Part shown: positions 12,822 to 51,504 of the stretch, in pieces
How the letters are laid out: each line of letters opens with the position of its first letter
How positions within the stretch are numbered: the first letter of the stretch is position 1
NCBI RefSeq assembly: GCF_039749495.1
Contig: NZ_JBDLLU010000003.1
Coordinates: 62,001-126,000, forward strand
DNA from: Dehalogenimonas sp. THU2
Lineage (GTDB): Bacteria > Chloroflexota > Dehalococcoidia > Dehalococcoidales > Dehalococcoidaceae
DNA: 64,000 nucleotides
Direction: 5' to 3'
Program-made: the position numbers and the translations under genes
The notes under the pieces: model-generated
What the model saw: only the letters and a program-made list of their open reading frames with translations
Told to the model about the DNA's origin: nothing
The model's database searches: none

Positions 12822-12822
12822 C

Positions 12823-15855: not shown

Positions 15856-15869
15856 AGGAACGATAAATT

Positions 15870-16322: not shown

Positions 16323-16330
16323 GGAGGAAC

Positions 16331-17511: not shown

Positions 17512-17532
17512 TGGTAAAAGGAAAGAAATAGT

Positions 17533-33078: not shown

Positions 33079-33396
33079 TTAGATCAGTTTTTCGATCTTA
33101 GTCTCCAGCGTGCTCTCCGGTACCGCGCCTACGACCGTGTCCTCGACTTTGCCGGCTTTAAAAAACATGAGGGTGGGAATGGACATGACCCGGAATTGTC
33201 CCGCCGTCTTCTGGTTTTCGTCCACGTTCATCTTGCAGAACTTGAATTTATCCTTGTGTTTCTCTTCCAGCTTATCTACAACCGGGGCCACCATGCGGCA
33301 GGGACCGCACCATGGAGCCCAGAAGTCTACCAGCACCGGTAATTCTGATTTGACCACTTCCGCGTCAAAAGTATCGTCGGTAATTTCCAGCGGCAT
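33079..33396 (-). CDS. trxA: Thioredoxin
   Basis: The 105-aa protein carries the FWAPWCGPCRM active site (Cys pair near residues 31 and 34), the RVMSIPTLMFF cis-proline strand and the usual C-terminal helix. It is a cytosolic thiol reductant. AAGAGGTGA precedes the ATG. It lies downstream of the HdrA-GltD fusion gene by about 60 bases on the same strand and could be co-transcribed with it or have its own promoter. Confidence 0.95.
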   Translation of the reverse strand: MPLEITDDTFDAEVVKSELPVLVDFWAPWCGPCRMVAPVVDKLEEKHKDKFKFCKMNVDENQKTAGQFRVMSIPTLMFFKAGKVEDTVVGAVPESTLETKIEKLI

Positions 33397-33458: not shown

Positions 33459-36400
33459 CTATGGGCATTCGATCAAGGCTTCAACCATAGCCTGCAATTG
33501 GCCGGTGGTGAAATTCTTGACCACGATACCTTGTTTGGGGCAAGTGGCCATGCAGACGCCGCAACCGCGGCATTTCACCGGGTCGGACTCGACAGTCTTT
33601 TTAACCGCCCCGTTACTACTGTATTCGATCAGGGTGATGGCGTCGAAGGGGCAGGGATCGACGCAATAGGCGCAGCCATCGCAATTGGCTTCAATCACCT
33701 CTGAGATACAGGGTTCCAGGGAGATACTGCCCTTGGCGATGGTCGCCAGCACCCGTGCCGCCGCCGCCTGGGCCTGGGCCACGGTTTGGGGGATATCTTT
33801 CGGTCCCTGGGCGCAACCGGCCACAAAGACTCCTTCGTTCATCGTAGCGACAGGGTCGAGTTTGGGATGGCGTTCCAGGAAAAAGCCGTCGGCGCTGCGC
33901 GACAGGCCGAATAAACGGCCCACCGCTTCGGCGTCCTTCTGAGGTTCAACGGCATTGGCCAGTACCACCATATCCACAGGCACCCGCAGTACGGCGCCCA
34001 GGAGAGTATCCTCGACGATAGCTATGAGTTTACCCTGTGTTTCCTCGCCGATAGTCTGATCGGTTATTTCGGCTACCTTGCCTCGAATGAAATTGACGCC
34101 CTCCTCGGCGACCCGCCTTGAAAACTCCTCGTAACCCTTGCCAACACACCGCAGGTCGATGTACATCTGATAAACGCTGGCGCCGGTGCGTTCCCTGATA
34201 AGATGAGCCTGTTTCAGAGAGTACATGCAGCATATCTGTGAACAGTACTCATGATAATTCTTGTCCCGGCTGCCGACGCAATGGACAATGGCAACGCTTT
34301 CCGGCTTGCGGCCGTCTTTCAGGCGTATCTCACCGCTGGTCGGACCCGATGCGTTGGCCAGCCTTTCGAATTCCAGGCCGGTAATGACATTCTCGAATTT
34401 TCCGTAACCGAATTGCGTGATAATGGAGGGGTCGAACATCTCGTAGCCTGTGGCGACGATGATGTTTCCAACTTCGATCTCCACATCTTTCGGCTGCTGC
34501 TCGAAATCGATGCACTTGGGTTCACAAACCGTCAGGCACTGGCGGCAATCGGAGCAACCTCCGCAGTTCAGGCAGCGCGCGGCTTCGGTCACCGCCTGGG
34601 CTTCGGTCAGGTTGAGTTCGGTCTCGGCAAACGAGGTGGTTTCTGCGGGTCTGTGCGAAATCGCGACCCGCGGTGCCTTGATGATACCTTTGATCGATGG
34701 ACGTGCGATATTTGGTTGCGTTTTCCAGTTGGCTTTGAGGTCTTGTTCATTCAGGTAACGATCGATGGATAACGCAGCCTCTTTGCCGGCGGCGATGGCT
34801 TCGATGACGGTGGCCGGGCCGGTAACGGCGTCACCACCGGCGAAAACGCCTTTGAGGCTCGTCGCCAACGTTATCGGGTCGGCTTTGATGGTACCGTTCG
34901 GTTGATGCTCGATTTCGTCAAAGGATCCCTCACCGACTAATTGCCCGACGGCTGTAATGATATTATCGGCGTCGATATCGAATTCGCTACCCTCAACCGG
35001 CATCGGTTTACGCCTGCCGCTCGAATCCGGTTCTCCCAACTCCATCCTTGTGCAACGCACACCGGTGACCCTACCGTCCAACTCGATAACAGCTACCGGG
35101 CTGGTGAGTAACGTCAATTTCACACCTTCAGCCTCGGCGGCGGCGATCTCCTCGGCTATAGCCGGCATTTCGGCGCGGAAACGACGATAGAGGATAGTAA
35201 CTTCTGTAGCGCCCAACCTTATGGCGGTCCGAGCTGCGTCCACAGCGGCATTGCCGCCGCCGATCACTGCGACCTTTTGTCCGAGGGGCGGTGCTGTGCC
35301 TTTTTTGACTTGTTTGAGGAAGTCTATGGCGTTGAAAACACCCCTGGCTGTCTCGCCGGGAATACCCAGCTTTTGGCTCCGCCAGGCGCCGCAGGCGATG
35401 AAAACCGACTGGTACCCTTTTTGTTCAAGCTGGTCGATGGATTCGATGGCAGTACCCGTTAGGATCTCGGCGCCGAGTTCCTTGAGATATGCGATATCAT
35501 TATCCAGCGACGCTTCCGGTAGCCGGTAGGCCGGTATGCCGTAACGCAACATGCCGCCGGGTTGTTCATCGGCTTCGAAAATTGTAACCGGATAGCCCAG
35601 TTTCAAGAGGTCGTAAGCGCAGGCTAAACCGGCGGGACCGGAACCGACGACGGCGATCCTCTCGGTGCGGTTTATCGCCGAGGTTGCCGCTCCTCGACCG
35701 TGATTCAGTTCATAATCGGCGATGAAGCGTTTCAGGGCGCGGATAGCGACGGCTTCGTCCAGGTCGCCCCGGCCGCATTCGGATTCACAGGGATGGGTGC
35801 ATACACGACCACAGACCGCGGCAAAAGGCATGGTGCGCCGTACCACTTCAAGGGCTTCGACGAACTTTCCCTGGGCGATGAGGGCGATGTAGCCCTGGGC
35901 ATTGACGCCAGCAGGACAGGCGACACGGCAGGGTGGTGTACCGCGACGGTCTATGGTGTAAGTATTGGGCACGGACTGGGGGAACGGCCGATAGGCTGCT
36001 TTGCGTTCAGCAAGTCCGAGATCGAATTCCGATGGTACTTTCACCGGGCATATCGTAGCGCAGTCGCCACAGCCTTTGCAGTCTTTTTCGTTAACGTAAC
36101 GGGGTTTCCGTTTGACGGTCACCTTGAAATTCCCGGCATGGCCGTTGACGGCGGCTACCTCGCTGTAAGAAAAAAGAGAAATGTTGGGGTGTTGCCCGGT
36201 CTGGCTCATCTTGGGCGTGGATATACAGGCGGCGCAGTCCAGTGTCGGAAAGGTCTTGTCCAGTTGCGCCATGTGGCCGCCGATGCCGGGATTCTTTTCG
36301 ACCAAGTAAACCTGGTTACCGGATTCAGCGATCTCCAGGGCGGCAGTGATGCCTGCGATACCGCCGCCGACGACCAGTGTATTTGTATTAACAGCGATAC

Positions 36401-36815
36401 TTCGAGGTTCGAGCGGTTGCTGTAAAGCAACTCGGCGCACCGCCGCGCGCACCATGTCTTTAGCCTTGGCTGTTGCCGCCGCTTTATCGCAATTGACCCA
36501 GGCACAGTGTTCCCGGATATTGGCCATATCGAGAAGGTAGGGGTTGATCCCGGCAGACTGAAGGGCGCGCCGGTAGGTTTTTTCATGCATCGTTGGGGAG
36601 CAGGCTGCAATCACGACCCGGTTGAGTGAGTTCTCGCGAATATCGCTTTTGATGATCTCTTGGCCTGGATCGGAACACGTGTATTTGTTTGTACGGGATA
36701 TGACGACTCCGGGTAACGTTCCGGCGTAGTCGGCCACCGAAACCACGTCGACAACGCCGGCGATGTTGATGCCACAGTGACAGATATAGACGCCGGTCCT
36801 GATCTCTTCGTTCAT
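33459..36815 (-). CDS. HdrA with an inserted GltD-like NAD(P)H module (1,118 aa)
   Basis: The order of parts is unusual. Residues 1-140 are the HdrA CHCG domain. Residues about 145-270 hold an HdrA FAD motif (VVGGGIAGI) and ferredoxin motif (CKGCGDCATICP). Residues about 290-760 are a GltD-like module with Fe-S cysteines (CRVACPAG, CGRVCTHPCESECGRG), an FAD motif (VVGSGPAGLACA, near 390), an NAD(P)H motif (VIGGGNAAVDAARTA, near 518) and the ending RCLNCGGC. HdrA sequence then resumes (EVGNIIVATGYEMFDP) and ends in two ferredoxin motifs (CDGCAYCVDPCP, CRGCGVCMATCP). I predict an NAD(P)H-using, possibly bifurcating, enzyme. ATG 36815 has AAGGAGG seven bases upstream. Confidence 0.9.
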   Translation of the reverse strand: MNEEIRTGVYICHCGINIAGVVDVVSVADYAGTLPGVVISRTNKYTCSDPGQEIIKSDIRENSLNRVVIAACSPTMHEKTYRRALQSAGINPYLLDMANIREHCAWVNCDKAAATAKAKDMVRAAVRRVALQQPLEPRSIAVNTNTLVVGGGIAGITAALEIAESGNQVYLVEKNPGIGGHMAQLDKTFPTLDCAACISTPKMSQTGQHPNISLFSYSEVAAVNGHAGNFKVTVKRKPRYVNEKDCKGCGDCATICPVKVPSEFDLGLAERKAAYRPFPQSVPNTYTIDRRGTPPCRVACPAGVNAQGYIALIAQGKFVEALEVVRRTMPFAAVCGRVCTHPCESECGRGDLDEAVAIRALKRFIADYELNHGRGAATSAINRTERIAVVGSGPAGLACAYDLLKLGYPVTIFEADEQPGGMLRYGIPAYRLPEASLDNDIAYLKELGAEILTGTAIESIDQLEQKGYQSVFIACGAWRSQKLGIPGETARGVFNAIDFLKQVKKGTAPPLGQKVAVIGGGNAAVDAARTAIRLGATEVTILYRRFRAEMPAIAEEIAAAEAEGVKLTLLTSPVAVIELDGRVTGVRCTRMELGEPDSSGRRKPMPVEGSEFDIDADNIITAVGQLVGEGSFDEIEHQPNGTIKADPITLATSLKGVFAGGDAVTGPATVIEAIAAGKEAALSIDRYLNEQDLKANWKTQPNIARPSIKGIIKAPRVAISHRPAETTSFAETELNLTEAQAVTEAARCLNCGGCSDCRQCLTVCEPKCIDFEQQPKDVEIEVGNIIVATGYEMFDPSIITQFGYGKFENVITGLEFERLANASGPTSGEIRLKDGRKPESVAIVHCVGSRDKNYHEYCSQICCMYSLKQAHLIRERTGASVYQMYIDLRCVGKGYEEFSRRVAEEGVNFIRGKVAEITDQTIGEETQGKLIAIVEDTLLGAVLRVPVDMVVLANAVEPQKDAEAVGRLFGLSRSADGFFLERHPKLDPVATMNEGVFVAGCAQGPKDIPQTVAQAQAAAARVLATIAKGSISLEPCISEVIEANCDGCAYCVDPCPFDAITLIEYSSNGAVKKTVESDPVKCRGCGVCMATCPKQGIVVKNFTTGQLQAMVEALIECP

Positions 36816-36832
36816 AAGAGCCTCCTTAAGGC

Positions 36833-37978
36833 TCAAAGAGCCTGGATAATGAGTTCGCTGATGTCTAAGATGGAGAAGCCGTCGGGTAGCGGCTGATTGA
36901 GGCCACTGTCCTTGAAATTGGACAAGCAATACGGGCAGGCGGTGACAAGCGTATCGGCACCTGTGGCCGCAGCTTGTTGGATTCTGTTTTCGCTGAAACG
37001 TTCAGCGCGCGGTGTCTCCATCCAAATACGCCCACCACCGCCCCCGCAGCAAAGACTCTCGGCTCGGCCGGGTTGTAGTTCAACCAGTTCAACACCGGGA
37101 ACGGCACCGATGACTTCCCTGGGTTCTTGATAAACCCCGTTGTGTCGTCCCAGGTAACAGGGGTCGTGGTAGGTAATTTTACGGTTGACGTGACTCTGGA
37201 ACTTCAGCCGGCCGGCGGCGAGCAGATCCGCCAGCAATTGGCTGGTATGAATGACCTCAAAGCGGCTGCCGAGTTCCGGGTATTCGTTTTTCAACGTATG
37301 GTAACAATGAGGTGAATTGACGATAATCCTGGTGACCTTGTTTTCGGAAAACAGGGTGGTGTTCCCACCGGCAAGTTGCTGGAAGAGCGCTTCATCGCCT
37401 GCCTTGCGGGCACTCTCACCACAACAGACGACGTTTTCGATAACACCGTAGTTTACTCCGGCGGCGGTGAGAACCTCAGCGGTTGATCTCACGGCATTCC
37501 TTAGAGCCGGATCGAATGCCGTCACGCAACAAGGAAAAAACAGGTATTCGGTAGCGGCATCGAAAGTTTTGATATCGAGGCCTTGCGCCCAGGCATTACG
37601 GGTATCGGCGGATTCACCCATTGGATTGCCGGTGGCGGATAGGTTTCTGAGGGCACCGGCTAGGGGTGCCGGGGCTTCGGCGATACCCATACCGATAACC
37701 GCCCGTCGCAACGCGCGCATGATATCGATGATAGGGACGTCACGCGGGCAGCGCTGGACGCATTTATTACAGGTGACACAACGCCAGACATTGTCGATCT
37801 CAAAATCTGTCAACCCTAGCCGGGCTTCTTCGAACATTCGCCTTGGCAGGAAAGAAATATAATCCCGCCAGGGACAGGTCGCGGAGCAGGTGCCGCACTG
37901 GTAACAACGGTCAAGCGCTTCGGCGCCGCTTTCCTTAATGAGTTCAGCTACTTCTGTAAAAGGCGCTTGAGTACCCAA
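36833..37978 (-). CDS. HdrD-like Fe-S protein (HdrC-HdrB fusion)
   Basis: Two N-terminal ferredoxin motifs (CYQCGTCSATCPW, residues about 25-37; CVTCNKCVQRCP, about 68-79) are joined to two CCG domains (FPCCVTAF...VVCCGESARK and DPCYLGRH...SLCCGGGGGR...CPYC). This matches HdrD/GlpC-type proteins, which pass electrons to or from disulfides, quinones or other partners. The 381-aa chain is complete. TTG start with AGGAGGT five bases upstream. It is the first gene behind a consensus promoter and palindromic operator, with the HdrA-GltD fusion 17 bases downstream. Confidence 0.9.
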   Translation of the reverse strand: MGTQAPFTEVAELIKESGAEALDRCYQCGTCSATCPWRDYISFLPRRMFEEARLGLTDFEIDNVWRCVTCNKCVQRCPRDVPIIDIMRALRRAVIGMGIAEAPAPLAGALRNLSATGNPMGESADTRNAWAQGLDIKTFDAATEYLFFPCCVTAFDPALRNAVRSTAEVLTAAGVNYGVIENVVCCGESARKAGDEALFQQLAGGNTTLFSENKVTRIIVNSPHCYHTLKNEYPELGSRFEVIHTSQLLADLLAAGRLKFQSHVNRKITYHDPCYLGRHNGVYQEPREVIGAVPGVELVELQPGRAESLCCGGGGGRIWMETPRAERFSENRIQQAAATGADTLVTACPYCLSNFKDSGLNQPLPDGFSILDISELIIQAL

Positions 37979-37994: not shown

Positions 37995-38020
37995 ACCTAT
38001 TGAATGATCATTCAATAGGT
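37995..38020. promoter_or_regulatory. 26-bp perfect palindrome, candidate repressor operator
   Basis: Half-sites ACCTATTGAATGA and TCATTCAATAGGT mirror each other exactly around the centre at 38007/38008. The core resembles TetR-family operators. It begins six bases past the -10 box, covering the predicted +1, and ends three bases before the Shine-Dalgarno site of the HdrD-like gene. Bound protein would therefore block initiation. Confidence 0.75.
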
Positions 38021-38026: not shown

Positions 38027-38055
38027 ATTATAGCATAAAGGAGTATTAGTACCAA
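38027..38055 (-). promoter_or_regulatory. Consensus promoter of the HdrD-like/HdrA-GltD operon
   Basis: On the minus strand: TTGGTA (complement of 38050-38055), a 17-base spacer ending TGC, and TATAAT (complement of 38027-38032). The box is also an extended -10 element. Confidence 0.85.
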
Positions 38056-38069: not shown

Positions 38070-39233
38070 TTAATAGGGATGGTCCGGGGAAGTGGAAGAT
38101 ACCGGCAGTGTCACCATGACGGTTGTGCCCTGGCCTGGAATTGAGTCAATGTTCATCTTAGCGCCTATGAGTTGAGCCCGTTCCTGCATGCCAGTCAAGC
38201 CTAGTTTACCGCTGACTGCAAGATCACCGATACGATCAGGAGGATGGAAACCCTTGCCATTGTCCTTGATGGTGAGAACCGTACGCTGAGGCAGGAAATC
38301 GATCATCACCCAAACGTGACTTGCGGCGGCGTGTTTACCAACGTTGCGGAGTGACTCCTGAACGATACGAAACAGCACCAGTTCTTTTTCAGGAGGGAAA
38401 CGCCGGATCGTCCCATTGATCGCAAGTTCGATATTAAGCTTGAAGTACTGTGCCAGGTCCGGTACCAGCCATTCTATCGCTGGGATCAACCCGAGGTCAT
38501 CGAGCACGGAGGGTCGTAAGTCTTGACTGAAACGTCGTACACTGCTCAATGTTCGGTTGACGTGCTGGTGCATGTCTTCCAAGTATGCCTCATCCGGAGA
38601 TGTCAGTGCCGGATGGAGGGACATGAAACCATCAATTTTTCGGGAGATCGCGATGAGGTCTTGGGCAGTATCATCATGTAGTTCCTGGGCGATACGGCGG
38701 CGCTCTTCTTCTTGGGCTAGTGTGATTTGTTTAAGATAGAATCTGAGATTCTGTTGCATTCTTTGCAGTTCTCTTTGAGCGCTTTCCAATCTTAAATACG
38801 CCATTTGGCGGTGGCGTTTATCCGTTTCATAGCTTTCCAACCATAGGTTGACCACCAGACCGATGATCACGATACCGATGATCTCAATGATATCATCGCC
38901 AGTAATCGGTGATTCTAGGAGAATTAGATTTGGCACGATCATCGTTACTGCGATAAGCAGAGCGAGTAACCCAATACGCATTCCAAAAACCAGAGCCGCA
39001 TAGGTTACCGGCAATAGCATTATCAAGCGTCCGAAAGAATGACGGCTTAAAGACAGAAAATTATTTGGGTCTAACGTATCGATAAATGGAATGAACTGGG
39101 GGTATTGGAGTAGAAACCCGCCGACAAAAAAAAGCACCAATAACCAAAGATGAAAGTTGGCGAAAATCCTAGCTATTCGGCGCCAGGATTTGGGTTTAGG
39201 TGTTTTTTTTCGTTGAGTGGAGGCGATATTCAG
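38070..39233 (-). CDS. Membrane sensor histidine kinase, NarX/DegS (HisKA_3) type
   Basis: Four to five hydrophobic helices at the N-terminus are followed by a coiled coil and the HisKA_3 phosphoacceptor (EEERRRIAQELHDDTAQDLI). The ATPase domain has NVGKHAAASHV, DNGKGFHPP and LGLTGMQERAQLIG. The partner regulator lies directly upstream. The first usual start in frame is TTG at 39140, which has no ribosome-binding site and would cut the first helix. The frame continues upstream with a basic N-terminus (QRKKTPKPKSWRR) to a CTG at 39233, six bases after GGAGGA. I favour the CTG start. No periplasmic sensor domain of any size is visible. Confidence 0.85.
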   Translation of the reverse strand: MNIASTQRKKTPKPKSWRRIARIFANFHLWLLVLFFVGGFLLQYPQFIPFIDTLDPNNFLSLSRHSFGRLIMLLPVTYAALVFGMRIGLLALLIAVTMIVPNLILLESPITGDDIIEIIGIVIIGLVVNLWLESYETDKRHRQMAYLRLESAQRELQRMQQNLRFYLKQITLAQEEERRRIAQELHDDTAQDLIAISRKIDGFMSLHPALTSPDEAYLEDMHQHVNRTLSSVRRFSQDLRPSVLDDLGLIPAIEWLVPDLAQYFKLNIELAINGTIRRFPPEKELVLFRIVQESLRNVGKHAAASHVWVMIDFLPQRTVLTIKDNGKGFHPPDRIGDLAVSGKLGLTGMQERAQLIGAKMNIDSIPGQGTTVMVTLPVSSTSPDHPY

Positions 39234-39253: not shown

Positions 39254-39901
39254 TCAGCCGCGTTTAAGGCCGTAAAGAATCGCTTCTGTCCGAGAGGCAA
39301 CCTCCAGTTTTTTAAAAATATTGGAGAGATGCGTTTGGACGGTCCGGCTGCTGACAAAAAGCTGGTCGGCGATGTCCTTGTTGCTGACACCTTTGGCGGC
39401 CAGTTTCAGCACTTCCATTTCGCGTTCTGTTAGTGTTGCCGAAGGTCCCTCATCAGGTTTGATCGGTTTAGACTTTAGTTGATCGATGACTCGGCGTGTT
39501 GTGGAAGGTTGCAGTATGGATTCGCCCGAATGAACGGCACGAATCGCGTCAATAAGTTGGTTTCCGCGTACGTTTTTAAGCAGGTAACCGGCCGCGCCGG
39601 CTTCTAATAATGCCATAATATATTGGTCGGAATCATAAGCGGTCAGGATAAGCACTGCGGTTGTCGGCAGGATTTTCTTTACCTGTTTAGTAGCCTCGAT
39701 ATCGTTCATATTGGGCATTGCGATATCCATGACGATAACATCCGGCCGATACACCCTGGCCAGTTCAACCGCTTCCACGCCGTCGCTGGCTTCGGCGACT
39801 ACCTGCATATCCGGTTGTCGCTGCACCATTTCACGAGTGCCCTCACGGACAATCACGTGGTCATCTGCGAGCAATACCTTGATCTTATCTTCACTTTCCA
39901 T
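39254..39901 (-). CDS. NarL/LuxR-family response regulator
   Basis: The receiver domain has the acidic pair (LLADDHV, near residue 13), phosphoacceptor Asp in VIVMDIAMP (near 58) and LILTAYDSD with switch Thr, then Lys in YLLKNVRG. The C-terminal LuxR helix-turn-helix reads LTEREMEVLKLAAKGVSNKDIADQLFVSSRTVQTHLSNIFKKL. At 215 aa it is complete. GAGGTGATATT precedes the ATG. It is encoded inside the acs gene series after the DUF3786 gene, so it probably regulates this or the neighbouring Hdr operon. Confidence 0.93.
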   Translation of the reverse strand: MESEDKIKVLLADDHVIVREGTREMVQRQPDMQVVAEASDGVEAVELARVYRPDVIVMDIAMPNMNDIEATKQVKKILPTTAVLILTAYDSDQYIMALLEAGAAGYLLKNVRGNQLIDAIRAVHSGESILQPSTTRRVIDQLKSKPIKPDEGPSATLTEREMEVLKLAAKGVSNKDIADQLFVSSRTVQTHLSNIFKKLEVASRTEAILYGLKRG

Positions 39902-40579: not shown

Positions 40580-41458
40580 TTAAATTTCTAACCACGAATG
40601 AGAATATAAAGCCTGACCGTTCAGTACCCGAACCGTTTTAATATAATCCTGTTCCTTTTTGGTCAACACCTCCATGTCTATTTCTGTCTCATCCATGGCT
40701 CGGTGCACCAAATTGACAATATTCGGCAGCCGACCGCGGGCAATATCGAGAAGTTCCGCATCGAAAGCGTCAACGATAGCTGCATGGAGTCCCTGCCGCG
40801 CGAGCATGATGAGGTAGGTGCGGTTCAGAATTGGACGAAGGTGCTGGGGTGTACCGTTGGAGACGTTGGACAAACCGACGATCGACTTGCATCCGGGAGC
40901 TATTTCGGACAGCGCGGACAGAAAATCAATACATGACGTTACCTGGTTGATTTCACCGCTGACAGGGGTCGCTATTGGGTCTATCCAGATATCTTCGTTC
41001 GGAATGCCTGTCTCATTCGCTTTGTAGACAAGGTCAACAGTTAACATGCAGCGCTCATTGGTATCACGTGGCATGCCGTCGCTGCCCCACAACAACCCGA
41101 TCATCTCGGCATTGTACTTCTTCACCAGAGGCAGGGTTTGTTCCACTCGCTCGGGCTGCAGTGACACGGAGTTGATCAGGGCACGCCGCCTGCACAGTTT
41201 TAGCCCTTCTTCGATGGCCGAGGCGTTGGTTGTGTCCAATGCGAGCGGCAGGTCGCTCACTTGTTGAATAGCGGCCACCAGCCATGGCATGAGATCGGTT
41301 CCGGTTTTCCTGGCCGGTCCTATGTTCAGGTCAAGATAGTCAACGCCAGCTTTTGTTTCCGCCCTGGCCAAAGCTTGTATGGGATCGGCGTGTTTTTCCT
41401 TGAGCGCCGGTCCGATCGTTTTGGACATGACGTTGATATTTTCGCCGATGAGTATCAC
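40580..41458 (-). CDS. acsE: Methyltetrahydrofolate:corrinoid/iron-sulfur protein methyltransferase AcsE
   Basis: A pterin-binding TIM barrel of the DHPS/MeTr family transferring the N5-methyl of methyl-tetrahydrofolate to cob(I)amide in AcsCD, or the reverse. Recognisable segments are ILIGENINVMSKTIGPAL, DYLDLNIGPA, LPLALDTTNASAIEEGL, LINSVSLQPE and GLSNVSNGTPQHLRPILNRTYL. At 292 aa it is a little longer than the 262-aa Moorella enzyme. It lies between acsC and the DUF3786 gene in one transcript. Confidence 0.93.
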   Translation of the reverse strand: MILIGENINVMSKTIGPALKEKHADPIQALARAETKAGVDYLDLNIGPARKTGTDLMPWLVAAIQQVSDLPLALDTTNASAIEEGLKLCRRRALINSVSLQPERVEQTLPLVKKYNAEMIGLLWGSDGMPRDTNERCMLTVDLVYKANETGIPNEDIWIDPIATPVSGEINQVTSCIDFLSALSEIAPGCKSIVGLSNVSNGTPQHLRPILNRTYLIMLARQGLHAAIVDAFDAELLDIARGRLPNIVNLVHRAMDETEIDMEVLTKKEQDYIKTVRVLNGQALYSHSWLEI

Positions 41459-41470
41459 TATATAAAACTC

Positions 41471-42820
41471 CTAAGGTTTCCAATTGGACTTAAGATAAGG
41501 TAAAAGGTGGGCTGCTTCCCGGGGTCCGACCATGATCTCCCAATCCGGCAATTCTTCTTCCAGTCCGCCGCTTTCCTGGGCGATATAACCCGGAATGATA
41601 AGTTTACGATGTTTTACGCGTTCGGCGATGCCACTTTTTTTGACGAAACCTCCTATGTTGTCCGCGCCGAATTTACCGGCAGCCCAGGCGGTCATAACCG
41701 AAAGTCCTTCAGTGTCTTTGATGAGGAGATGTGCCGGCATGCGGGTATTCTCTATTTCACCGGAGACGATAAAATAGGTTAATGAGAAATTGCAGGTGAT
41801 TGCTACCGGTGAATTTTCATCCGGGCCGTTGATGTCGTATATCCCTTCGGCGGTAGCCAGCGGCCGCTGAGGGTCGGTGTACAGGTTAAGGCGGGCTACC
41901 AGCAGAGGAAAAAGGGTCTCCCCTTTGAAATCGGAAAGCACGATTATACCGGCATACTTGGCCATTAATGCGCTGGCGATAAGAGATTCTTTGATAGGGT
42001 TGTCGGTCATCTCCGCTGGAAAAACTATGGTTGGGAAACCCAGCAACCTGAACTTTTTGAGCAGTGCTAAACGGCGCAAGCCAACTTGGTCTGCCAGCGC
42101 TTTCTTCAAATCGCGGGCGCCGGTGTCCAGGATGATGTCCTTGATGCCAAGGTCTGTCAATCGTCGTGTGAGTTCGGTCAATTCATCAAGCGTGTCAGCA
42201 TGGGCAACCACCGGGAGCGATAGTTCCTTAGCCGGTGCGGCCAGGGTTTCCAAGTTTGAGAGGGTAATGGCACATATTATCGGTTTGCGATCATCGCAGG
42301 CTTCAGCCGCAGCATTGATCGCTCCGGCGTCCTGGCACATGAGGATGATTCCTGCATCTGTTTGGTTTTTCGCTTTCGCGGCCAGAGCGGCATAAGTACT
42401 TGAATCGCCTGATTCATATTTTAGAGCAACCAGTTCCGGTTTTAGCGTGGCTCCGACGCGAGTGTAAGTATGGGAATGGAGACTTTTCAGCCGGCGGGCT
42501 ATTTCTGTGTCATTCATCGTATCGCTGATAACGATGGCTAACCCAGGCGGGTTCTCGAATCGTTTCTCATGGCGGAACATCACGGTTTCACCGCCGATTT
42601 TAAGCGGATTGCCACCCGTCATGATGCTTACCGGGCGGATGGGAGGCGCCGAAGCCTCCTCGAGTTTTGTTTTCGATTCTTCACTGATAAACGGGCACGC
42701 GGTGAGTTCAGCCTTGCCAGCCGCCAGGCTCATAGCGAAAGCCAAACAGGTTGGGACACCGCACTTACCGCAATTGGTTTTGGGTAAATATTTAAAAATT
42801 TCGATGCCGGACAGTGCCAT
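41471..42820 (-). CDS. acsC: Corrinoid/iron-sulfur protein large subunit AcsC
   Basis: The N-terminal Fe-S domain has TNCGKCGVPTCLAFAMSL and a later TACP (cysteines at about 18, 21, 26 and 43), binding the low-potential [4Fe-4S] cluster that reactivates the corrinoid. A TIM barrel follows. The C-terminal corrinoid-binding domain includes LSVMTAWAAGKFGADNIGGFVKKSG and VGPREAAHLLPYL. At 449 aa it is full length. It forms a heterodimer with AcsD and carries the methyl group between AcsE and AcsB. Confidence 0.95.
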   Translation of the reverse strand: MALSGIEIFKYLPKTNCGKCGVPTCLAFAMSLAAGKAELTACPFISEESKTKLEEASAPPIRPVSIMTGGNPLKIGGETVMFRHEKRFENPPGLAIVISDTMNDTEIARRLKSLHSHTYTRVGATLKPELVALKYESGDSSTYAALAAKAKNQTDAGIILMCQDAGAINAAAEACDDRKPIICAITLSNLETLAAPAKELSLPVVAHADTLDELTELTRRLTDLGIKDIILDTGARDLKKALADQVGLRRLALLKKFRLLGFPTIVFPAEMTDNPIKESLIASALMAKYAGIIVLSDFKGETLFPLLVARLNLYTDPQRPLATAEGIYDINGPDENSPVAITCNFSLTYFIVSGEIENTRMPAHLLIKDTEGLSVMTAWAAGKFGADNIGGFVKKSGIAERVKHRKLIIPGYIAQESGGLEEELPDWEIMVGPREAAHLLPYLKSNWKP

Positions 42821-42837
42821 AGGTCATCTCCTTCAAT

Positions 42838-45036
42838 TTACAATAAGGGTTCCATGGTTATCGCCGGGTGGTTTTTTTCGGTCAGAAAAGCAAGTATGTC
42901 TTCTTCGGTGGTGCCGACACTCTCATCTGCGATACGGTCCAGAAGGTCGGGGATGCCAATCTCAATTGCTCTTTCGTTGAACCGGTCGGCGATCTCTTCT
43001 TTGAGAGAGCGTGGCATCCAGACCAGACGTTTAATACCGCCTTCAGCAGCCAGGAACTTGCGTTGAGTGATGTTGTATTTTGAGTGTCCCACGAAACCGG
43101 GTGTGGTCACACCGCCGCCGATGGTACCGGCCAGGGTGGTAAATTTCATACCGCTGGGTGTCATATTAGCGAATTCCCGGTTGACGGTCATGACTCCGTT
43201 GCATAAAGGCAATATCGCGGCGATACATTCCATACAGCCGCAGGCGGTCATCGGATCAATCAGAATACTATAGAAATTGTAGTGGTCCACCTTACCCCGG
43301 GAGGCTTTAAATACAAATTCATTAACCCCTTTCCATTGACCCGTTCGGGCGTCGATCGTTTCGCCCTTGGGTACCGGTTGGTTGGGACCGGTGGGACTGA
43401 TCTCAAAAGAGGCTTTACAATCCATCCAGTTATACGAACCACACAAACCGGTACGCTCGGGACTGACGACACATACATGAGAAGGGGCAAAAGACTGACA
43501 AAGGAGGCAGGAATAAAATGTGTCGGTCGTTTCGTCAGTCATTCCTTCGATTCTAGCGTCCCGGTTAGCATAGACCTCTTTAGCTTTGCTGGCGATATTC
43601 GTGACATCACCTTCAATGGTGAAAATTTTCACCTGGAGTTTGTCGAAAATACGTCCGAAATCCTGGTGCAATTTTGCGTGCAACAGCTTGCCGATATGTT
43701 CCAGCCGGAATCCTTTTTCGAAGGCGCCTTTACCGATACGTAACCAGGCGATATCGCGCTGACCGATGTGCATCACCCCTTGAGCGTAATTGATGAGATG
43801 GTGCACTTGTCGCTCTAATATAGGTTCGTAATCTTCTTCCATTTGCCGGCCAGCCACTTCAACAACGATCGCCATCGGCAGTCTGCTGCCGGGAGGAACA
43901 TCGGTGATCTCAGGACCGATAACTTCGACCAACCCGTCTTGAATGGCTTCCATCGGTTTGGACGTAACCCATTCCACCATTGGAGTGCGCCCGCCGCCAC
44001 ATTCCAGGTAGATATCCTCACCGCGTACGCGTTCGCCTTCAAAGGCGGGACCGTAGGCAACTGGTACCGGCACTTCGGAAACTACGACTTTCAAGCCACG
44101 AACTTCAGTGGCTCGCGATACTATTTTCTCATAGGGCACCCCGGATACTATCAGTTCGACCGGCGGTTCACCCAGGGTCAATGAGGGTATCGAGGTGTCG
44201 GCGATTACAGGGAAGCCGAAATTAAGCGCTCCTGCGGCGACGGCATACCATTCGTTGGTCACTTCACCAAGGGCGATGACGAAGGCTGCGATGCGTTCTT
44301 TGCTGTAAGAAAATAACTGTCTTTGATCCCCGGGCGTGATATTACCGAAAGATAAGGCTACGCGTGAAGCAAATCCCAAGGCGAAAACCGAGGATGAGAT
44401 ATCAGGACCGAAGGGGACGAGCCGCGTTGGCCAGCCGACCTGGATACCGCTCCGTTCGAGTTGCTCACTGAAACGGTCACCATGGTGGGATGCGCTCATA
44501 AAAACGTAGAGATTCCGCTGTTGCAACTCTGTGGCGATGCGGACAGCCGCCTGGTCGTCCGCCGCCGCGCCGAGGATGACGGCGAATCCGGGAGCGCTGC
44601 CGTCGACGAATTCGACGCCCCGTTTCCGCAATATCACGTCGTCAGCGGCACCCATCCAGAGGTTTTCCACGACCTGCGTTTCCATTCCGGTGTAAAAACC
44701 GGGAGTATTCAAATATCTTAGTGCTTCGATGATTTCGGCGGCGAAGAGGGCAGCCATACCGGCGTCCAGCACTCCGGCTAACCCGACTGAGTCCGGTTCC
44801 GCATTAGGTGCTGGCAGCAAGGCGTGGCAGCGATCTATAACTGGAGCAATGTCTTTGAGCATTTCGACTTTCATGCCGGTGACGGCATAGATAACCGGCA
44901 GGTAATAGGCGGTATTCGGGAATCCAATCGGAGTGTTCTCGAAATGATCAGCTGCCGCCTGTCGCCACGCGGTTTCTGCTGTCTTGAAGATTTTCCAGGC
45001 GCCGCGCACGGCGCCGGTTATGATTATTCTGGACAT
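42838..45036 (-). CDS. acsB: Acetyl-CoA synthase AcsB
   Basis: The 732-aa chain is the full-length bacterial acetyl-CoA synthase, which makes or splits acetyl-CoA from CO, a methyl group and CoA. The A-cluster ligands are visible: SCLLCQSF, SHVC and TGLCGSYNWMDC for the [4Fe-4S] cube and CGC (in TACGCMEC) for the distal nickel. The N-terminal domain, which normally contacts CO dehydrogenase, is retained. No CO dehydrogenase gene (acsA/cooS) lies in the window. The neighbours are acsC downstream and acsD upstream. Confidence 0.96.
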   Translation of the reverse strand: MSRIIITGAVRGAWKIFKTAETAWRQAAADHFENTPIGFPNTAYYLPVIYAVTGMKVEMLKDIAPVIDRCHALLPAPNAEPDSVGLAGVLDAGMAALFAAEIIEALRYLNTPGFYTGMETQVVENLWMGAADDVILRKRGVEFVDGSAPGFAVILGAAADDQAAVRIATELQQRNLYVFMSASHHGDRFSEQLERSGIQVGWPTRLVPFGPDISSSVFALGFASRVALSFGNITPGDQRQLFSYSKERIAAFVIALGEVTNEWYAVAAGALNFGFPVIADTSIPSLTLGEPPVELIVSGVPYEKIVSRATEVRGLKVVVSEVPVPVAYGPAFEGERVRGEDIYLECGGGRTPMVEWVTSKPMEAIQDGLVEVIGPEITDVPPGSRLPMAIVVEVAGRQMEEDYEPILERQVHHLINYAQGVMHIGQRDIAWLRIGKGAFEKGFRLEHIGKLLHAKLHQDFGRIFDKLQVKIFTIEGDVTNIASKAKEVYANRDARIEGMTDETTDTFYSCLLCQSFAPSHVCVVSPERTGLCGSYNWMDCKASFEISPTGPNQPVPKGETIDARTGQWKGVNEFVFKASRGKVDHYNFYSILIDPMTACGCMECIAAILPLCNGVMTVNREFANMTPSGMKFTTLAGTIGGGVTTPGFVGHSKYNITQRKFLAAEGGIKRLVWMPRSLKEEIADRFNERAIEIGIPDLLDRIADESVGTTEEDILAFLTEKNHPAITMEPLL

Positions 45037-45104
45037 CTTAAATACCTCTTGAGGTTTCCCTGTTGCTGATCTGGGACTTGTGTGGCTCCAGTCAATCAGT
45101 CTGG

Positions 45105-46046
45105 TCAGCTTAATTCCGATATCATCTCTCGGGTCAACCTTATTGCTTCCGGATGGCGCATGATGAGGATATCAGCGCCAGCCAACAGTAACAATGTTGC
45201 ACTCATCGCCTCCAGGGTAATGCCGCGCTCGCCGTCGTTCCCATAACTCGGGTCATCGGCTTCGACGGCCTTGGCTTCCTTGGATTTCCATGTTTCGCGG
45301 GCAATGTTGCAGATGAGCGGAAACTGCAACTTTTCATCCTGTTGGGTCAGGGCAGCCATGCGGATGCGCTCCATTACGGAATAGGCGTATTCGATCCCAT
45401 AACCGATGGAACTGACCGTCGGGTCCATGATGATATTTGATTCTTTTATGCCCAGATTGGACATCAGGATGTTAAGCTGCTTAGCCAGATTGATATCGAT
45501 GGGGCTGGAAGCGATAACGATATGGTTGTAAGCCATGGCTGTGGCACCGATTTTCTTGTAGTTACCTTCTTCCACCGGGCCCAGCGCCAATCGTCGGTCC
45601 TGGACGGCTTCAGCCACAGCCCGTAACACTTCGGTGTCTTTTTCGGGATTGGCCGTGCCCCAGATGACCAATGGAACGTCGATGGCGGCGGCCACTTTCT
45701 TTACCAGCTGGGCGGTCTCTTCCGCGCTACGATTAGTTCCGTTGGGGTCGGTGCTTTGTAGTTGCAGACAGATCATCTCGGCGCCGTATGATTCGACACA
45801 CTTCTTTGCCCAGGCAACAGGGTCTCCCAGCACGTCGGCAAAGGGCGCTATCGCTGCTTCCGGCCAATCATCCGGTGCTTCATCATAGACTTCCATGGCG
45901 ATGCGTGGAGTGTTTGGCATGTTGCCTTCGAACTTGTAGAACGGATAGCAGCTTTCTCCACCGACTTCAATGGATTTAGCGCCGTCACCCATCTGTATCT
46001 GATGAATACGGCCGTTATAGTTTAGATGAGGTATTTCAATGGGCAT
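45105..46046 (-). CDS. acsD: Corrinoid/iron-sulfur protein small subunit AcsD
   Basis: A TIM-barrel protein pairing with AcsC to hold the corrinoid. Segments IPHLNYNGRIHQIQMG, GGESCYPFYKFEGNMPNTPRIAMEV, LQLQSTDPNGTNRSAEETAQLV and DPTVSSIGYGIEYAYSVMERIR are family-typical. At 313 aa it is complete. The start is preceded by AGGAGGCG. A gap of 85 bases separates it from folD and 68 bases from acsB, with no terminator visible. Confidence 0.95.
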   Translation of the reverse strand: MPIEIPHLNYNGRIHQIQMGDGAKSIEVGGESCYPFYKFEGNMPNTPRIAMEVYDEAPDDWPEAAIAPFADVLGDPVAWAKKCVESYGAEMICLQLQSTDPNGTNRSAEETAQLVKKVAAAIDVPLVIWGTANPEKDTEVLRAVAEAVQDRRLALGPVEEGNYKKIGATAMAYNHIVIASSPIDINLAKQLNILMSNLGIKESNIIMDPTVSSIGYGIEYAYSVMERIRMAALTQQDEKLQFPLICNIARETWKSKEAKAVEADDPSYGNDGERGITLEAMSATLLLLAGADILIMRHPEAIRLTREMISELS

Positions 46047-46131
46047 GATTCGCCTCCTGTCGTTGATGCGCTCAGTTCATGAGCCGGGACCATTTGGATC
46101 TCATATTCCACAATGGACAATACACCCCTGA

Positions 46132-47019
46132 TCACTTCAGTCCATGGGCAAGTTTGGCGGCTTTGACCGTATTGGTCATCAGCATGACGATCGTCATAGG
46201 GCCGACACCGCCGGGTACCGGGGTGATGGCACCGGCGATTTCTCTAACATTATCAAAATCCACGTCTCCCGACAAGATACGCTTGCCGGCAGGGGTTTTT
46301 CCGATCTCATTGGTTCCCACATCGATGACTGTTGCACCCGGCTTGACCATGTCGGCAGTGATGAACTTCGGCTTGCCGATGGCGGCGATCAATATATCGG
46401 CACGGCGGGTATGGCTGGCGATGTCCCGGGTGGCACTATGGCATACCGTAACCGTGGAATTAGCACCGGCGGCTTTCTGCAATAAAATATTAGCCACAGG
46501 TTTCCCCACGATGTTGGAGCGGCCAACGATCACCACTTCCGCTCCCTCGGTCGGTACTCCGGCATGGATCAATAGTTCCTGGATGCCATGAGGTGTACAG
46601 GGCAGGAAGGTGGGTTGACCGATCACCATCCGCCCGACGCTTACCGGATGAAAACCATCCACGTCCTTATCCGGGCTGATAGCCGTCAAAACCCGGCCTT
46701 CGTCGATATGGCGGGGCAGTGGTACCTGGACCAGGATTCCATGGATTTTGGGATCAGAGTTTAATTGTCCTACCAGGTTTAGTAGTTCATTTTCCGATAC
46801 CGTACCCGGCAGGGGATAATTGGCTGAATAGAGTCCAAGCGCCTGACAGGCTTTGATCTTGGTGCTGACGTAAGTCTGGGACGCCGGGTCGTCGCCAACG
46901 ATGACCGTGGCCAATCCGGGCGTGAGGTCATATTTTTCTTTCAGATCGTCGATTTCTCTCTGGAGTTCCTCGCGGATCTGTTTTGCGATCTCGGTACCGC
47001 TTATTATCCGTGCTGTCAT
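46132..47019 (-). CDS. folD: Bifunctional methylene-THF dehydrogenase/methenyl-THF cyclohydrolase FolD
   Basis: FolD interconverts methylene-, methenyl- and formyl-tetrahydrofolate. Motifs YVSTKIKACQALG (catalytic Lys), ISPDKDVDGFHPVSVGRM and the nucleotide-binding GRSNIVGKPVANILLQ are intact. At 295 aa it is of normal length. It overlaps cooC by four bases. Together with Fhs it supplies the folate side of the acetyl-CoA pathway. The next enzyme, methylene-THF reductase MetF, is not encoded here. Confidence 0.96.
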   Translation of the reverse strand: MTARIISGTEIAKQIREELQREIDDLKEKYDLTPGLATVIVGDDPASQTYVSTKIKACQALGLYSANYPLPGTVSENELLNLVGQLNSDPKIHGILVQVPLPRHIDEGRVLTAISPDKDVDGFHPVSVGRMVIGQPTFLPCTPHGIQELLIHAGVPTEGAEVVIVGRSNIVGKPVANILLQKAAGANSTVTVCHSATRDIASHTRRADILIAAIGKPKFITADMVKPGATVIDVGTNEIGKTPAGKRILSGDVDFDNVREIAGAITPVPGGVGPMTIVMLMTNTVKAAKLAHGLK

Positions 47020-47795
47020 GTTTTTACCTCATTCAATTTGTGAAGCCGGAGATTTTGCATCAGTCTATCGATTGCCCGTACTGCTGCCGAATCATCGGGC
47101 ATTTCGAGTAATGAGTGTTGATGCAAGTCGTATTCCATGATGAGTTCATCGGTGGGTACTACCACAGTGGGCGAGATCCCCAATCGGTCCATTTCAGCTT
47201 CCACCAGTGGGTCGATTTCTGCCGGAGCCTGGTTTATTACGACCCACTTCCGTTTAATGTTCAAGTCTAATTCTTGCACCAGCTGCATAACCGTGGCGAT
47301 GGTACGCACTCCTTTTATCGAGTGGTTGGATACGATTATGAGTTCATCGACGTTCCCTGTCGTGCCGCGGGAGAGATGTTCCAGTCCGGCTTCATTGTCC
47401 ATGACCATGTACTGGTAATTCGGCGTCAACTTATCGATGAAATCTTTCAAGACGTTATTTGGAAAACAGTAGCACCCGGCGCCTTCCCCCCGCCCCATGG
47501 TGATGAGGTCAACGCCCCGGCTTTCGACGATCGCCTCACTGAACTTGATATTGAGGTAAGCGTCCTTGGACATTCCGGATGGGATAGTGATCTTATTTTC
47601 GTTGAACCCGGCCAGCACCGATCCAATCGTTCTCTCGATATCAAGGCCCAATCCAAGTCCCAGGTTAGCAGCCGGATCGGCGTCAACCGCCAGAACCGGT
47701 GCACCGCCGTGTTTGACCAGGTATCGAATGATCAAACCGGCGATCGACGTTTTACCGGTACCGCCTTTACCGGCCATTGCAATGGTAACTGTCAT
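47016..47795 (-). CDS. cooC: CooC/AcsF-type nickel-insertion ATPase
   Basis: A MinD-like ATPase with deviant Walker A AGKGGTGKTS (residues about 8-17) and a CXC nickel-binding motif in GAGCYCFPNNVL. It matures nickel sites of CO dehydrogenase or acetyl-CoA synthase. No CO dehydrogenase gene is nearby, so AcsB is its probable client. VMDNEAGLEHLSRGTTGNVD and VINQAPAEID are further family segments. At 259 aa it is complete, with four-base overlaps to both folD and the upstream activator gene. Confidence 0.93.
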   Translation of the reverse strand: MTVTIAMAGKGGTGKTSIAGLIIRYLVKHGGAPVLAVDADPAANLGLGLGLDIERTIGSVLAGFNENKITIPSGMSKDAYLNIKFSEAIVESRGVDLITMGRGEGAGCYCFPNNVLKDFIDKLTPNYQYMVMDNEAGLEHLSRGTTGNVDELIIVSNHSIKGVRTIATVMQLVQELDLNIKRKWVVINQAPAEIDPLVEAEMDRLGISPTVVVPTDELIMEYDLHQHSLLEMPDDSAAVRAIDRLMQNLRLHKLNEVKT

Positions 47796-49720: not shown

Positions 49721-49737
49721 ATCATCATGCTGCCTGA

Positions 49738-51504
49738 TTAAAACAATCCCTTCACTTTTCCCGTCTCCACATCGACATCGATGCGCCGAAAAGCCGGGTC
49801 TGACGATGTACCTGGCATAAGCTTGATATCCCCAGCCACCGGCACGATGAATCCGGCGCCGTTATATACCAGGATATCACGGATCGGCAGCGTCCAGCCT
49901 TCGGGGCGCCCTTTGAGCGCAGGGTCATGCGACAGTGACAAGTGCGTTTTCACCATGCAGGTGGCAAAATGAGCCTTAGTTGGGTCGGCCTCGATCGTCT
50001 GGGCTTTGGACAAAGCGTCCGGCGTGTAACTTACGCCATCCGCTCCATACACTTCTTTCGCGATTTTATCTATGCGCGCCCTGAGCGGCAGATTGTCCTC
50101 GTAGAGCAGTTTAAAGTCATTGGCCTCTTCGCAGGCGTCGATGACAGCGTCGGCCAGTTCCAACGCGCCTTCTCCGCCGTTCAACCAGTGACGTGAAACC
50201 GCGGCACGGGCGCCTGCTGCCTCTGCAGCACGCTTTACGATACTGATCTCCTCCGGAGAGTCGGTATGGAAATGGTTGATGCACACCACGGGGTTCATCC
50301 CGGACTTTTTGACCGTTTCGATATGGGCGATGAGATTCAACAGGCCTTTTTCGACCAGACCCGGATTGGGATCGGTATAGGCGGCGTCCAGTGGTTTACC
50401 GGGGGTTACCCTTGGCCCGCCGCCGTGCATCTTCAAGGCGCGTATCGTGGCGACAATAACGGCGCAGTTGGGTTTCAGCCCGCTCACCCGGCACTTGATG
50501 TTCCAGAACTTCTCGAAACCGATGTCGGCGCCAAAACCGCTTTCGGTGACGTGGTAATCTGATAATTTCAAAGCCACCTGATCAGCCACGATCGAAGATT
50601 GGCCGACAGCGATGTTGGCGAAAGGTCCGGCATGCACCATCACCGGCTGTCCCTCGATACTTTGCAGTAGATTAGGATTGGAGGCTCTCACCAGCCACGC
50701 GGTCATAGCCCCGTCCACTTCAAGGTCCTTGGTGGTCACCGGGTTGCCCTGCCGGTCATAGGCTACCACTATCCGGGAGATACGTTCTCTCAGATCGCGG
50801 AGGCTGGTGAAGACGGCCATGATGGCCATGACCTCGGAACTGACGGAAATGGCGAACCCGCTACGCATCATGAAGCCGTCGGTTTTACCGCCCAGCCCGA
50901 TGATTATATCTCTCAGAGACTGGGCGCAGAAATCCATCACCCAGCGCATGGGTACGTTGTGGGGGTCGATATTCAATCGCTTGAGGTTGCGTTTGCCTAA
51001 AAACTCATCGGTGTTGATGGCCTCATGCTGCAAGCGGGCGGTCAAGGCCACCATCGCCAGGTTGTGGGCATTGGTAATAGCGTCGATATCGCCGGTCAAG
51101 CCAAGTGAAAAAGGCGTCAAGGGGATGCACTGTGACAACCCGCCACCGGCCGCACTGCCCTTGATGTTGAAAGTTGGTCCGCCGGAAGGCTGGCGGATAG
51201 CGCCGGAGACATTACCTTTGCGTTTGGCCAGACCCTGCACCAGGCCCATGGTCGTGGTGCTTTTACCTTCACCCAGTGGTGTGGGGGTGATGGCGGTAAC
51301 GTCGATATACCTGCCGTTGGGCTGGTCTTTGAGCCTGGCGGTAACCGCTGAGTAGTCCACCTTACCCAGGTGATGGCCGTAAGGCAGGAGTTCCTCATCA
51401 AGGATGCCCCATTCCGCAGCCAGCCGGTTAACCGGTTTCATGGTTTTTTCAGCTTCCTCGGCAATCTGCCAGTCCTTGAGCCTGGTCGGATCAAGTTTGA
51501 CCAA
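49738..51504 (-). CDS. fhs: Formate-tetrahydrofolate ligase
   Basis: Fhs condenses formate with tetrahydrofolate using ATP. The P-loop region is [18 protein letters not shown] (residues about 66-83), followed by the conserved [20 protein letters not shown] and the [10 protein letters not shown] segment. At 588 aa it is slightly longer than the usual 557-560 aa. The start is TTG at 51504, with AAAGGAG nine bases upstream. It is the first gene of the leftward acs series. The 207-base gap upstream is shared with a divergent gene; on the minus side only a weak TATATT box is visible. Confidence 0.96.

Follow-up and report, generated by a model that had tools for sequence, protein, structure and literature searches.

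To our knowledge it is not settled by which routes Dehalogenimonas-like organohalide respirers, living on scarce H2, gain NADPH and electrons of low potential. The nanomolar H2 expected for such organisms corresponds to about −240 to −270 mV, at which the reduction of NADP+ would need coupling by bifurcation. Two adjacent minus-strand genes that may bear on the question lie in a 64,000-nucleotide stretch of the genome of Dehalogenimonas sp. THU2 (contig NZ_JBDLLU010000003.1, positions 62,001 to 126,000; hereafter the window, to which all coordinates refer). These are hdrA (33459..36815), which encodes an HdrA with an inserted GltD module (a type III HdrA), and hdrCB (36833..37978), which encodes an HdrD-like fusion of HdrC and HdrB. 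The reading that we prefer, and to which we give a chance somewhat short of even, is that the two proteins form a hydrogenase-fed, NADP(H)-coupled type III HdrA complex that shares the MvhADG hydrogenase with a ferredoxin-type HdrA encoded elsewhere in the window.

A GltD-like module interrupts HdrA

The HdrA chain has 1,118 residues when read from the ATG at 36815, which is preceded by AAGGAGG; a frame of 1,156 residues from a TTG is merely the longest one. In phmmer alignments, residues 3–290 and 754–1114 match the HdrA of M. thermolithotrophicus (5odc), with two HdrA residues between the pieces, and residues 293–761 match the GltD part of NfnABC (9bov). NfnB and GltD proper align up to about residue 690 only. 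The insertion seam falls between the two cluster motifs of the inserted ferredoxin of HdrA. Residues 1–290 (35946..36815) comprise the N-terminal Fe-S domain, the first half of the TrxR/FAD domain and cluster motif 1 (C246/249/252/256). The GltD module follows (residues ~291–752; 34560..35945), with its FAD motif at 389–396 and its NAD(P) motif at 517–524. HdrA then resumes with cluster motif 2 (C754/757/760/764) and the second half of the TrxR/FAD domain (residues 753–1034; 33714..34559), and the chain ends in a C-terminal two-cluster ferredoxin domain (CFd) of the MvhADG-linked class (residues 1035–1118; 33462..33713). Its single TrxR domain, together with the GltD insert, makes the protein a type III HdrA. 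The NAD(P)-binding GltD-type family PRK12771 (NF009410) passes its cut-off over residues 286–783 (536.6 versus 516 bits). The stretch of residues 726–751 (RCLNC) resembles, weakly (1.6 bits), the N-terminus of NfnB (RCLQC), which reads as if a ligand pair had moved behind the module.

An AlphaFold2 model built from a 30-row alignment (predicted local distance difference test, 83.8; predicted template modeling score, 0.71) agrees with this division. It matches HdrA 5odc_A over 638 residues (Z 47.7, 3.8 Å) and NfnABC 9bov_A over 469 residues (Z 50.4, 1.9 Å). The GltD part aligns with NfnABC and StnC over 464–480 residues, reaching beyond the cysteines that follow the module (Z 46.6–50.4), and with NfnB over 387–402 residues (Z 40.1–40.7). 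The flavins and clusters of the HdrA and GltD parts are predicted. The first-pass annotation, made from the letters of the stretch, had described an HdrA interrupted by one complete GltD-like module with dinucleotide motifs near residues 390 and 518 and with Fe-S cysteines of its own, and had proposed structure prediction as a check; the alignments, the model and the conserved cysteines described below bear it out on each of these points. Its placing of an HdrC–HdrB fusion gene 17 bases upstream of hdrA likewise agrees with the positions of the reading frames.

Conserved residues suggest an NADP(H) port and one bifurcating flavin

Residue conservation was assessed in an alignment of 30 complete single type III open reading frames (ORFs), duplicates removed and the window's included, drawn from 40 such ORFs. 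E817 and K868, which correspond to E356 and K409 of M. thermolithotrophicus HdrA, are kept in all 30. This pair is kept in all archaeal type III sequences and is used to recognise bifurcating HdrA flavins (PMC12054007). The module cysteines 296, 300, 339, 343 and 347 are present in 30/30 proteins, as is C748, and C751 is present in 29; all cysteines of HdrA's own inserted ferredoxin are kept as well. C748 and C751 follow the module and adjoin the C754–C764 motif of HdrA, as in StnC/NfnABC alignments, and together with the five module cysteines they presumably serve as cluster ligands.

The NAD(P) motif of the module ends in Ala in all 30 proteins and is a complete GxGxxA in 27 of them, the window's included, and the FAD motif of the module ends in Gly. 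Lyu et al. report GxGxxG for the GltD domains of nine archaeal members and read it as NAD preference, without specifying, in the excerpt used, which dinucleotide motif is meant or stating it as a criterion of type III membership (PMC12054007). The window's NAD(P) motif, ending in Ala, would by their rule point to NADP(H), and we lean moderately towards NADP(H) over NAD(H) as the cofactor. That this HdrA has an NAD(P)H port at all is, judging from its motifs, highly probable. The motifs and the kept E817/K868 pair support the earlier suggestion in that one chain holds both a site for NAD(P)H and an HdrA flavin competent for bifurcation.

In the cluster that lies next to the flavin of GltD, StnC has three Cys and a Lys, and NfnB has a Glu in the fourth position (PMC10482914, section 9), and StnC is reported to be non-bifurcating at that flavin (PMC10482914). 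The fourth-ligand position of this proximal cluster is K362 in the window protein and Lys in 30/30 type III proteins, as in StnC, rather than the Glu of NfnB; in L002, a stand-alone, NfnB-like GltD from the window's genome, the position is Glu. R431, which alignment mapping places at the position of NfnB R201 and StnC R239, is kept in 30/30. In NfnB this Arg forms a hydrogen bond to N5 of the FAD, and StnC also has the Arg, at ~6 Å. A NuoG-like domain was absent from the chain in a Pfam scan, and the combination of K362 with this absence indicates an StnC-like module rather than an StnC. The module thus appears to resemble those of StnC and NfnABC rather than NfnB and, being of a non-bifurcating type, need not add a bifurcation site of its own. 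We consider it probable, on these residues, that the HdrA flavin is the only bifurcating one.

A second Hdr operon and a possibly shared hydrogenase

The window encodes a second Hdr system (11368–19469, plus strand) that the first-pass annotation did not mention. It consists of hdrC and hdrB (11368..12821; hdrC 11368–11958, hdrB 11955–12821), a double (type II) HdrA (12784..15855; 1,023 residues as the longest frame, which overlaps hdrB, so that the true start probably lies later), mvhD (15870..16322), and a group comprising mvhG, mvhA for the large subunit of the [NiFe]-hydrogenase and a hycI-type hydrogenase protease (16591..19469; 16591–17511, 17533–18975 and 18975–19469, respectively). The mvhD product is the genome's only MvhD (PF02662) match. 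The window encodes all of HdrA, HdrB/C, MvhD, MvhG and MvhA, spread over two operons that 17 kb separate. The same Hdr/Mvh set occurs in the stretches of seven genus relatives, and each of the eight genus genomes has one MvhD, 16–19 kb from the type III gene (about 17 kb in the window).

The C-terminal ferredoxin of the type III HdrA does not share the affinities of the preceding domain. Identity to the type II HdrA of the same genome is 39% over TRX2, 41% over residues 1001–1034 and 67% over CFd, and identity to three other type III HdrAs (L099, L100 and L101) is 64–68%, 68% and 33–39% over the same segments, placing a crossover near residue 1035. In the CFd tree, which left out ORFs with incomplete or split architectures and nine duplicates, the genus type III sequences and L012, the nearest outside-genus relative with downstream sequence, fall inside the Mvh-linked clade (support 99, and 98 in a reduced set); in the core tree the same rows fall inside the type I/III clade (support 99).

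MvhD lies within 500 bp in 50 of the 95 HdrAs examined. Twenty-three HdrAs with this CFd class adjoin an MvhD that is 65–91% identical to the window's (65–82% for the 16 outside the genus, 14 of whose loci also showed mvhG), and the MvhD of 27 HdrAs with the other CFd class is 49–60% identical, so that the two ranges do not overlap. Operons of double-HdrA hybrids combine GltD, a CFd of the Mvh class and mvhDGA genes. The C-terminal ferredoxin is where MvhD hands electrons to HdrA in the complex of methanogens (PMC9012536). Taken together, the CFd class, the crossover and the MvhD association suggest that both the type III and the double HdrA dock on the MvhADG hydrogenase of the second operon. 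We regard the sharing of MvhD and hydrogenase by both HdrA complexes as an evenly balanced proposition. The earlier suggestion that the hdrCB–hdrA products form a self-contained complex is doubtful, given a CFd of the MvhD/hydrogenase-linked class and a sole MvhD encoded 17 kb away.

HdrCB (381 residues, read from a TTG start at 37978 with AAAGGAGG) has two [4Fe-4S] motifs. Its gene lies upstream of hdrA at a spacing of 17 bases, and both genes have strong ribosome-binding sites. CCG domain 1 lacks a CxxC (C225 stands alone) and CCG domain 2 is intact, its cysteines being found in 47–48 of 48 aligned HdrCB-like sequences. HdrCB therefore does not have the two complete CCG motifs of an HdrB and should carry one catalytic cluster, like HdrD; the hdrB product of the second operon, by contrast, has CCG and CxxC in both halves.

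Proposed electron path and its alternatives

In the mechanism that we propose, the type III HdrA would be the port through which a bifurcating HdrA complex exchanges electrons with NADP(H). A covalent Fe-S path would lead from the GltD FAD over two clusters to the inserted ferredoxin and on to the HdrA FAD; the GltD flavin would pass electrons without bifurcating, as in StnC, and bifurcation would take place at the HdrA flavin only. The complex would dock on the single MvhD–MvhAG hydrogenase, which would at the same time be that of the double HdrA encoded 17 kb away. The HdrA flavin would bifurcate the electrons arriving from H2, sending one pair uphill via the inserted ferredoxin and GltD to NADP+ and the other downhill via HdrCB to an acceptor. 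The reverse reaction (confurcation) would also be possible, and we hold the direction from H2 to NADP+ only tentatively. Electron direction, cofactor choice and the substrate of HdrCB are what we infer.

A more specific version, which we think less likely, has one MvhADG serving two HdrA complexes. The double HdrA and HdrBC would produce reduced ferredoxin, GltD-HdrA and HdrCB would produce NADPH, and GltD-HdrA would have acquired its docking domain from the double HdrA by recombination at the TrxR/ferredoxin boundary. If this is true, the two functions would sit in one chain in other phyla, namely in double HdrAs with GltD in mvhDGA operons, and HdrA would be a plug-board whose ports (GltD, ferredoxin and MvhD-docking) are swapped at fixed seams. 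The crossover would then be a testable case of domain exchange rewiring which donor an HdrA uses.

Several observations weigh against the hydrogenase-fed, NADP(H)-coupled complex. The approximately unbiased (AU) test of CFd transfer, made against the core relatives, is borderline (p 0.055, log-likelihood difference 36.8) on an 84-column alignment, and the AU test of the genus CFd as nested in versus sister to the Mvh clade gives p 0.33; both tests dropped ten long-branch rows. The window's own proteins served as the reference for both CFd/MvhD classes, and among the hybrids the match of CFd and MvhD could stem from operon co-inheritance, although this would not explain the crossover in this genus. 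No mvhD lies beside hdrCB–hdrA in this genus. The predicted template modeling score of 0.71 leaves the placement of GltD relative to HdrA open. The NCBIfam cut-offs for HdrA were not reached (HdrA2, 820.1 of 1100 bits; HdrA, 594.5 of 1400), which makes the protein HdrA-like rather than a methanogen HdrA. As to the cofactor, GxGxxA as an NADP signature is a rule of thumb, the GltD-insert HdrA that has been measured, from Moorella, is an NADH oxidiser (with benzyl viologen, 190 U/mg; PMC9430772), and NADH is the mid-potential donor in the proposal of Lyu et al. (PMC12054007).

The last two reports also favor an alternative in which NAD(P)H is the mid-potential donor and electrons pass from GltD to the HdrA flavin, from there to HdrCB at high potential and to a low-potential acceptor, either ferredoxin or H+ through MvhD and the hydrogenase. 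This is close to what the first-pass annotation had in mind and to the proposal for archaeal type III HdrA, which was made for a Bathyarchaeota cluster with mvhADG and in which NADH is the donor and heterodisulfide and H+ are reduced (PMC12054007). The fully kept cysteines of HdrA's inserted ferredoxin fit it as well. GltD, however, is inserted in the ferredoxin-delivering arm and may block it, as Lyu et al. note, and the Ala-ending motif indicates NADP by the rule of the same authors (PMC12054007). H+ reduction through MvhD would share its docking with the reading that we prefer and differ from it in direction alone. We think this alternative unlikely.

The gene that follows hdrA brings in a further candidate, an NADPH-dependent thiol/disulfide reductase in which electrons flow from GltD through HdrA and HdrCB to a disulfide, possibly that of the adjoining thioredoxin. 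The thioredoxin gene (trx; 33079..33396, minus strand) lies 62 bp 3′ of hdrA, is next after it in 8/8 genus genomes and is the genome's only PF00085 match. No terminator-like site lies between hdrA and trx on that strand, and a terminator-like hairpin (33054–33029) follows trx. Yet a promoter-like site precedes trx, and in L012 another gene, on the opposite strand, comes after hdrA. A normal thioredoxin reductase is present in the genome (TIGR01292 above cut-off), which also led us to reject the idea that the trx operon makes up for a missing one. Thioredoxin has a potential of about −270 mV and would be a poor driver for bifurcation. We therefore give the thiol reductase little credence.

Upstream of hdrCB lies an acetyl-CoA/folate cluster (acsE, acsC, acsB, acsD, folD, a cooC-like ATPase gene, acsV and fhs; 40580..51504, minus strand), which we take as context outside the complex. 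The earlier suggestion that the complex supplies electrons to one-carbon (C1) metabolism rested in part on this neighborhood and on a lack of MetF. Such a role, with electrons going to MetF (methylene-THF reductase) or the ACS branch, would recall the HdrCBA–MvhD–MetVF system of Moorella, which includes a GltD-bearing HdrA (PMC9430772). The acs cluster adjoins the operon in 6/8 genomes, and MetF is found in 6/8. MetF is indeed missing from the window, but its absence from the genome was rejected, since the genome's only MTHFR (MetF) match lies on another contig. The Moorella set itself was not found, MetV (PF12225) having 0 matches in the window's own genome at E ≤ 0.001. Two genomes without MetF (G004 and G005) keep the hdrCB–hdrA operon, and in two others acsB is ~87 kb (G001) and ~116 kb (G002) away. 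With adjacency broken in two of the eight genomes and operons kept where MetF is absent, the data do not call for a dedicated C1 role, and we consider it very improbable. An acsE-like gene was not seen in the G004 and G005 stretches, whose whole genomes were not searched for it. Between acsE and the two-component pair upstream of hdrCB lies a gene for a DUF3786 protein (39914–40573), which also stands beside the acs cluster in the five relatives whose stretch holds that cluster.

Two bifurcation sites in one chain, at the GltD FAD as in NfnB and at the HdrA FAD, have been suggested for ANME-1 HdrA–NfnB fusions (PMC9012536) and would fit the invariant R431, but we regard them as very improbable here, since StnC has the same Arg and is reported non-bifurcating (PMC10482914), the fourth-ligand position is a Lys of StnC type in 30/30 and not the Glu of NfnB, and the neighbors are hdrCB and trx, not an NfnA.

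Distribution of the fusion and earlier descriptions

A full-length fusion is present in 8/8 genomes of the genus, in seven of them on a single contig, and a near-whole-length match was found in at least 17 of 400 genomes drawn from the phylum, a lower bound because two candidates were scored per genome. These counts reject an assembly error, that is, two separate genes joined by misassembly, and give the search for the domain order across Chloroflexota that the first-pass annotation had called for. In the other genus of the family, 3/3 genomes had no match at E ≤ 1e-100. If the hydrogenase-fed complex is the right reading, the operon would be an H2-to-NADP+ bifurcating route carried by all eight genus genomes and unmatched, at that threshold, in the three of the other genus. 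Two of the 17 matches have one in-frame TGA; the HdrA matches with such a codon (G033, G016 and G020; G422 and G392) are possibly selenocysteine HdrAs. G004 carries a ~29-kb repeat of acs-RR-HK-hdrCB-hdrA (L138 and L139), in which the reading frame of one hdrA copy breaks down near the C-terminus and the trx after it has decayed.

Among the best 80 of 192 relatives in a contig scan, whose taxa are no census, the single type III layout occurs in records labelled Dehalococcoidia/Chloroflexi, Deltaproteobacteria, Desulfobacterales, Abyssobacteria and Heimdallarchaeota, and the longer relatives, among them those from Acidobacteria and Planctomycetes, have a double HdrA whose first half holds GltD. 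These hybrid double HdrAs (L034–L057 in part, L080 and L083) have ~1,470–1,880 residues, come from several phyla and mostly lie beside mvhD-mvhG-mvhA; their layout matches that described for Moorella. In one of them (L057, from a record labelled Dehalococcoides mccartyi metagenome-assembled genome) GltD groups with those of the Dehalococcoidia single type III proteins, which looks as if a GltD cassette had passed from one HdrA type to another with the seam unchanged. In Deltaproteobacteria-type loci (L020, L022–L025, L027, L029 and L031) an HdrCB-like ORF of 762–791 residues is followed by a type III HdrA and then MvhD, and where the locus extends far enough a double HdrA mostly comes next.

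A single origin of the GltD insert is unsupported. The core tree, with genus and hybrid rows scored as carrying GltD, needs nine changes, seven of them forced by well-supported branches, and the GltD tree places stand-alone GltDs in between inserted ones at moderate support (86–92). Both are quick trees without bootstrap and carry long-branch warnings.

The combination of HdrA and GltD in one chain has already been published. HdrA with inserted GltD was named type III (A9/A10) on the basis of nine archaeal sequences from ANME-1 and Bathyarchaeota (Lyu, Yu & Lu 2025, PMC12054007), a 500-residue NfnB-like insertion was described in ANME-1 HdrA 9–11 (Chadwick 2022, PMC9012536), and the Moorella thermoacetica HdrA of HdrCBA–MvhD–MetVF, of 162.8 kDa, has a GltD domain (PMC9430772). 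The window protein is a bacterial member of this published architecture, and type III HdrA, described from nine sequences among methane-metabolising archaea, proves widespread though patchy in bacteria. What is new here is the StnC-type module signature in combination with the Mvh-type C-terminal domain, which jointly suggest a hydrogenase-fed NADP(H) port. A search of open-license papers found no report of an HdrA–GltD fusion in Dehalogenimonas; Hdr genes have been noted in Dehalogenimonas and not in Dehalococcoides (PMC7506110). The source genome has 23 PF13486 (dehalogenase) matches, several of which are pieces of one gene.

Regulatory sites and the two-component pair

A perfect 26-bp palindrome (37995..38020), a probable operator, lies between the −10 box and the ribosome-binding site of hdrCB. 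The promoter-like site, TTGGTA-17-TATAAT with an extended −10 (38027..38055, minus strand), is a consensus match only, and the region holds 10 sites of this kind versus 5.8 expected. In 8/8 genus genomes the palindrome core, TTGAAYGANYRTTCAA, either precedes hdrCB or lies at its start; in G002 the longest hdrCB frame starts inside the core, so that the true start presumably lies later. Besides the hdrCB copies there are 0–1 further sites per genome, and a reversed control pattern gave none. The further sites (loci L150–L163) lie before a DUF6812 gene in the window's own genome and before its look-alike in G007 and G003, and before a gene read as fabF in G004 and G005. An operator shared with the double-HdrA operon was rejected, since even with up to three mismatches allowed the window showed no further site. 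The hdrCB–hdrA operon seems, from these sites, to have its own regulation, apart from that of the double-HdrA operon. Upstream of hdrCB, on the minus strand, are genes for a histidine kinase (HisKA_3; 38070..39140) and a LuxR-type response regulator (39254..39901).

Comparison with known systems

The GltD modules of StnC and NfnABC (8oh5, 9bov and 9n5u) are 43–46% identical to the window's over 464–480 aligned residues and share with it the fourth-ligand Lys of the proximal cluster (StnC) and an RCLxCG after the module. In StnC the module is followed by NuoG-like parts feeding a HydBC-like FMN core, whereas the window chain goes on in HdrA. Archaeal type III HdrAs have the same GltD/NfnB-like module in the inserted ferredoxin of HdrA and the same E356/K409 pair (PMC12054007, PMC9012536); the window protein differs in being bacterial, in its fused hdrC–hdrB partner, in the MvhADG-linked CFd of the genus and in an NAD(P) motif that ends in Ala, GxGxxG being reported for the archaeal GltD domains without the residues in the excerpt used. 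The Moorella HdrA also carries a GltD module, but it is described as a double HdrA with GltD in the first half and with MetVF as partners, whereas the window HdrA is single and its genome lacks a MetV match. HdrCB shares with HdrD, TfrB and DsrK-type proteins the order HdrC–HdrB in one chain and an intact second CCG, but it lies below the cut-offs of all 25 NCBIfam families shown, and its first CCG has no CxxC. With HdrABC–MvhADG of methanogens (5odc) the window system has in common all HdrA domains, the flavin residues and the two-cluster C-terminal ferredoxin, and it differs in the GltD insert, in an HdrB and HdrC that are fused and HdrD-like, and in mvh genes that stand in a separate operon.

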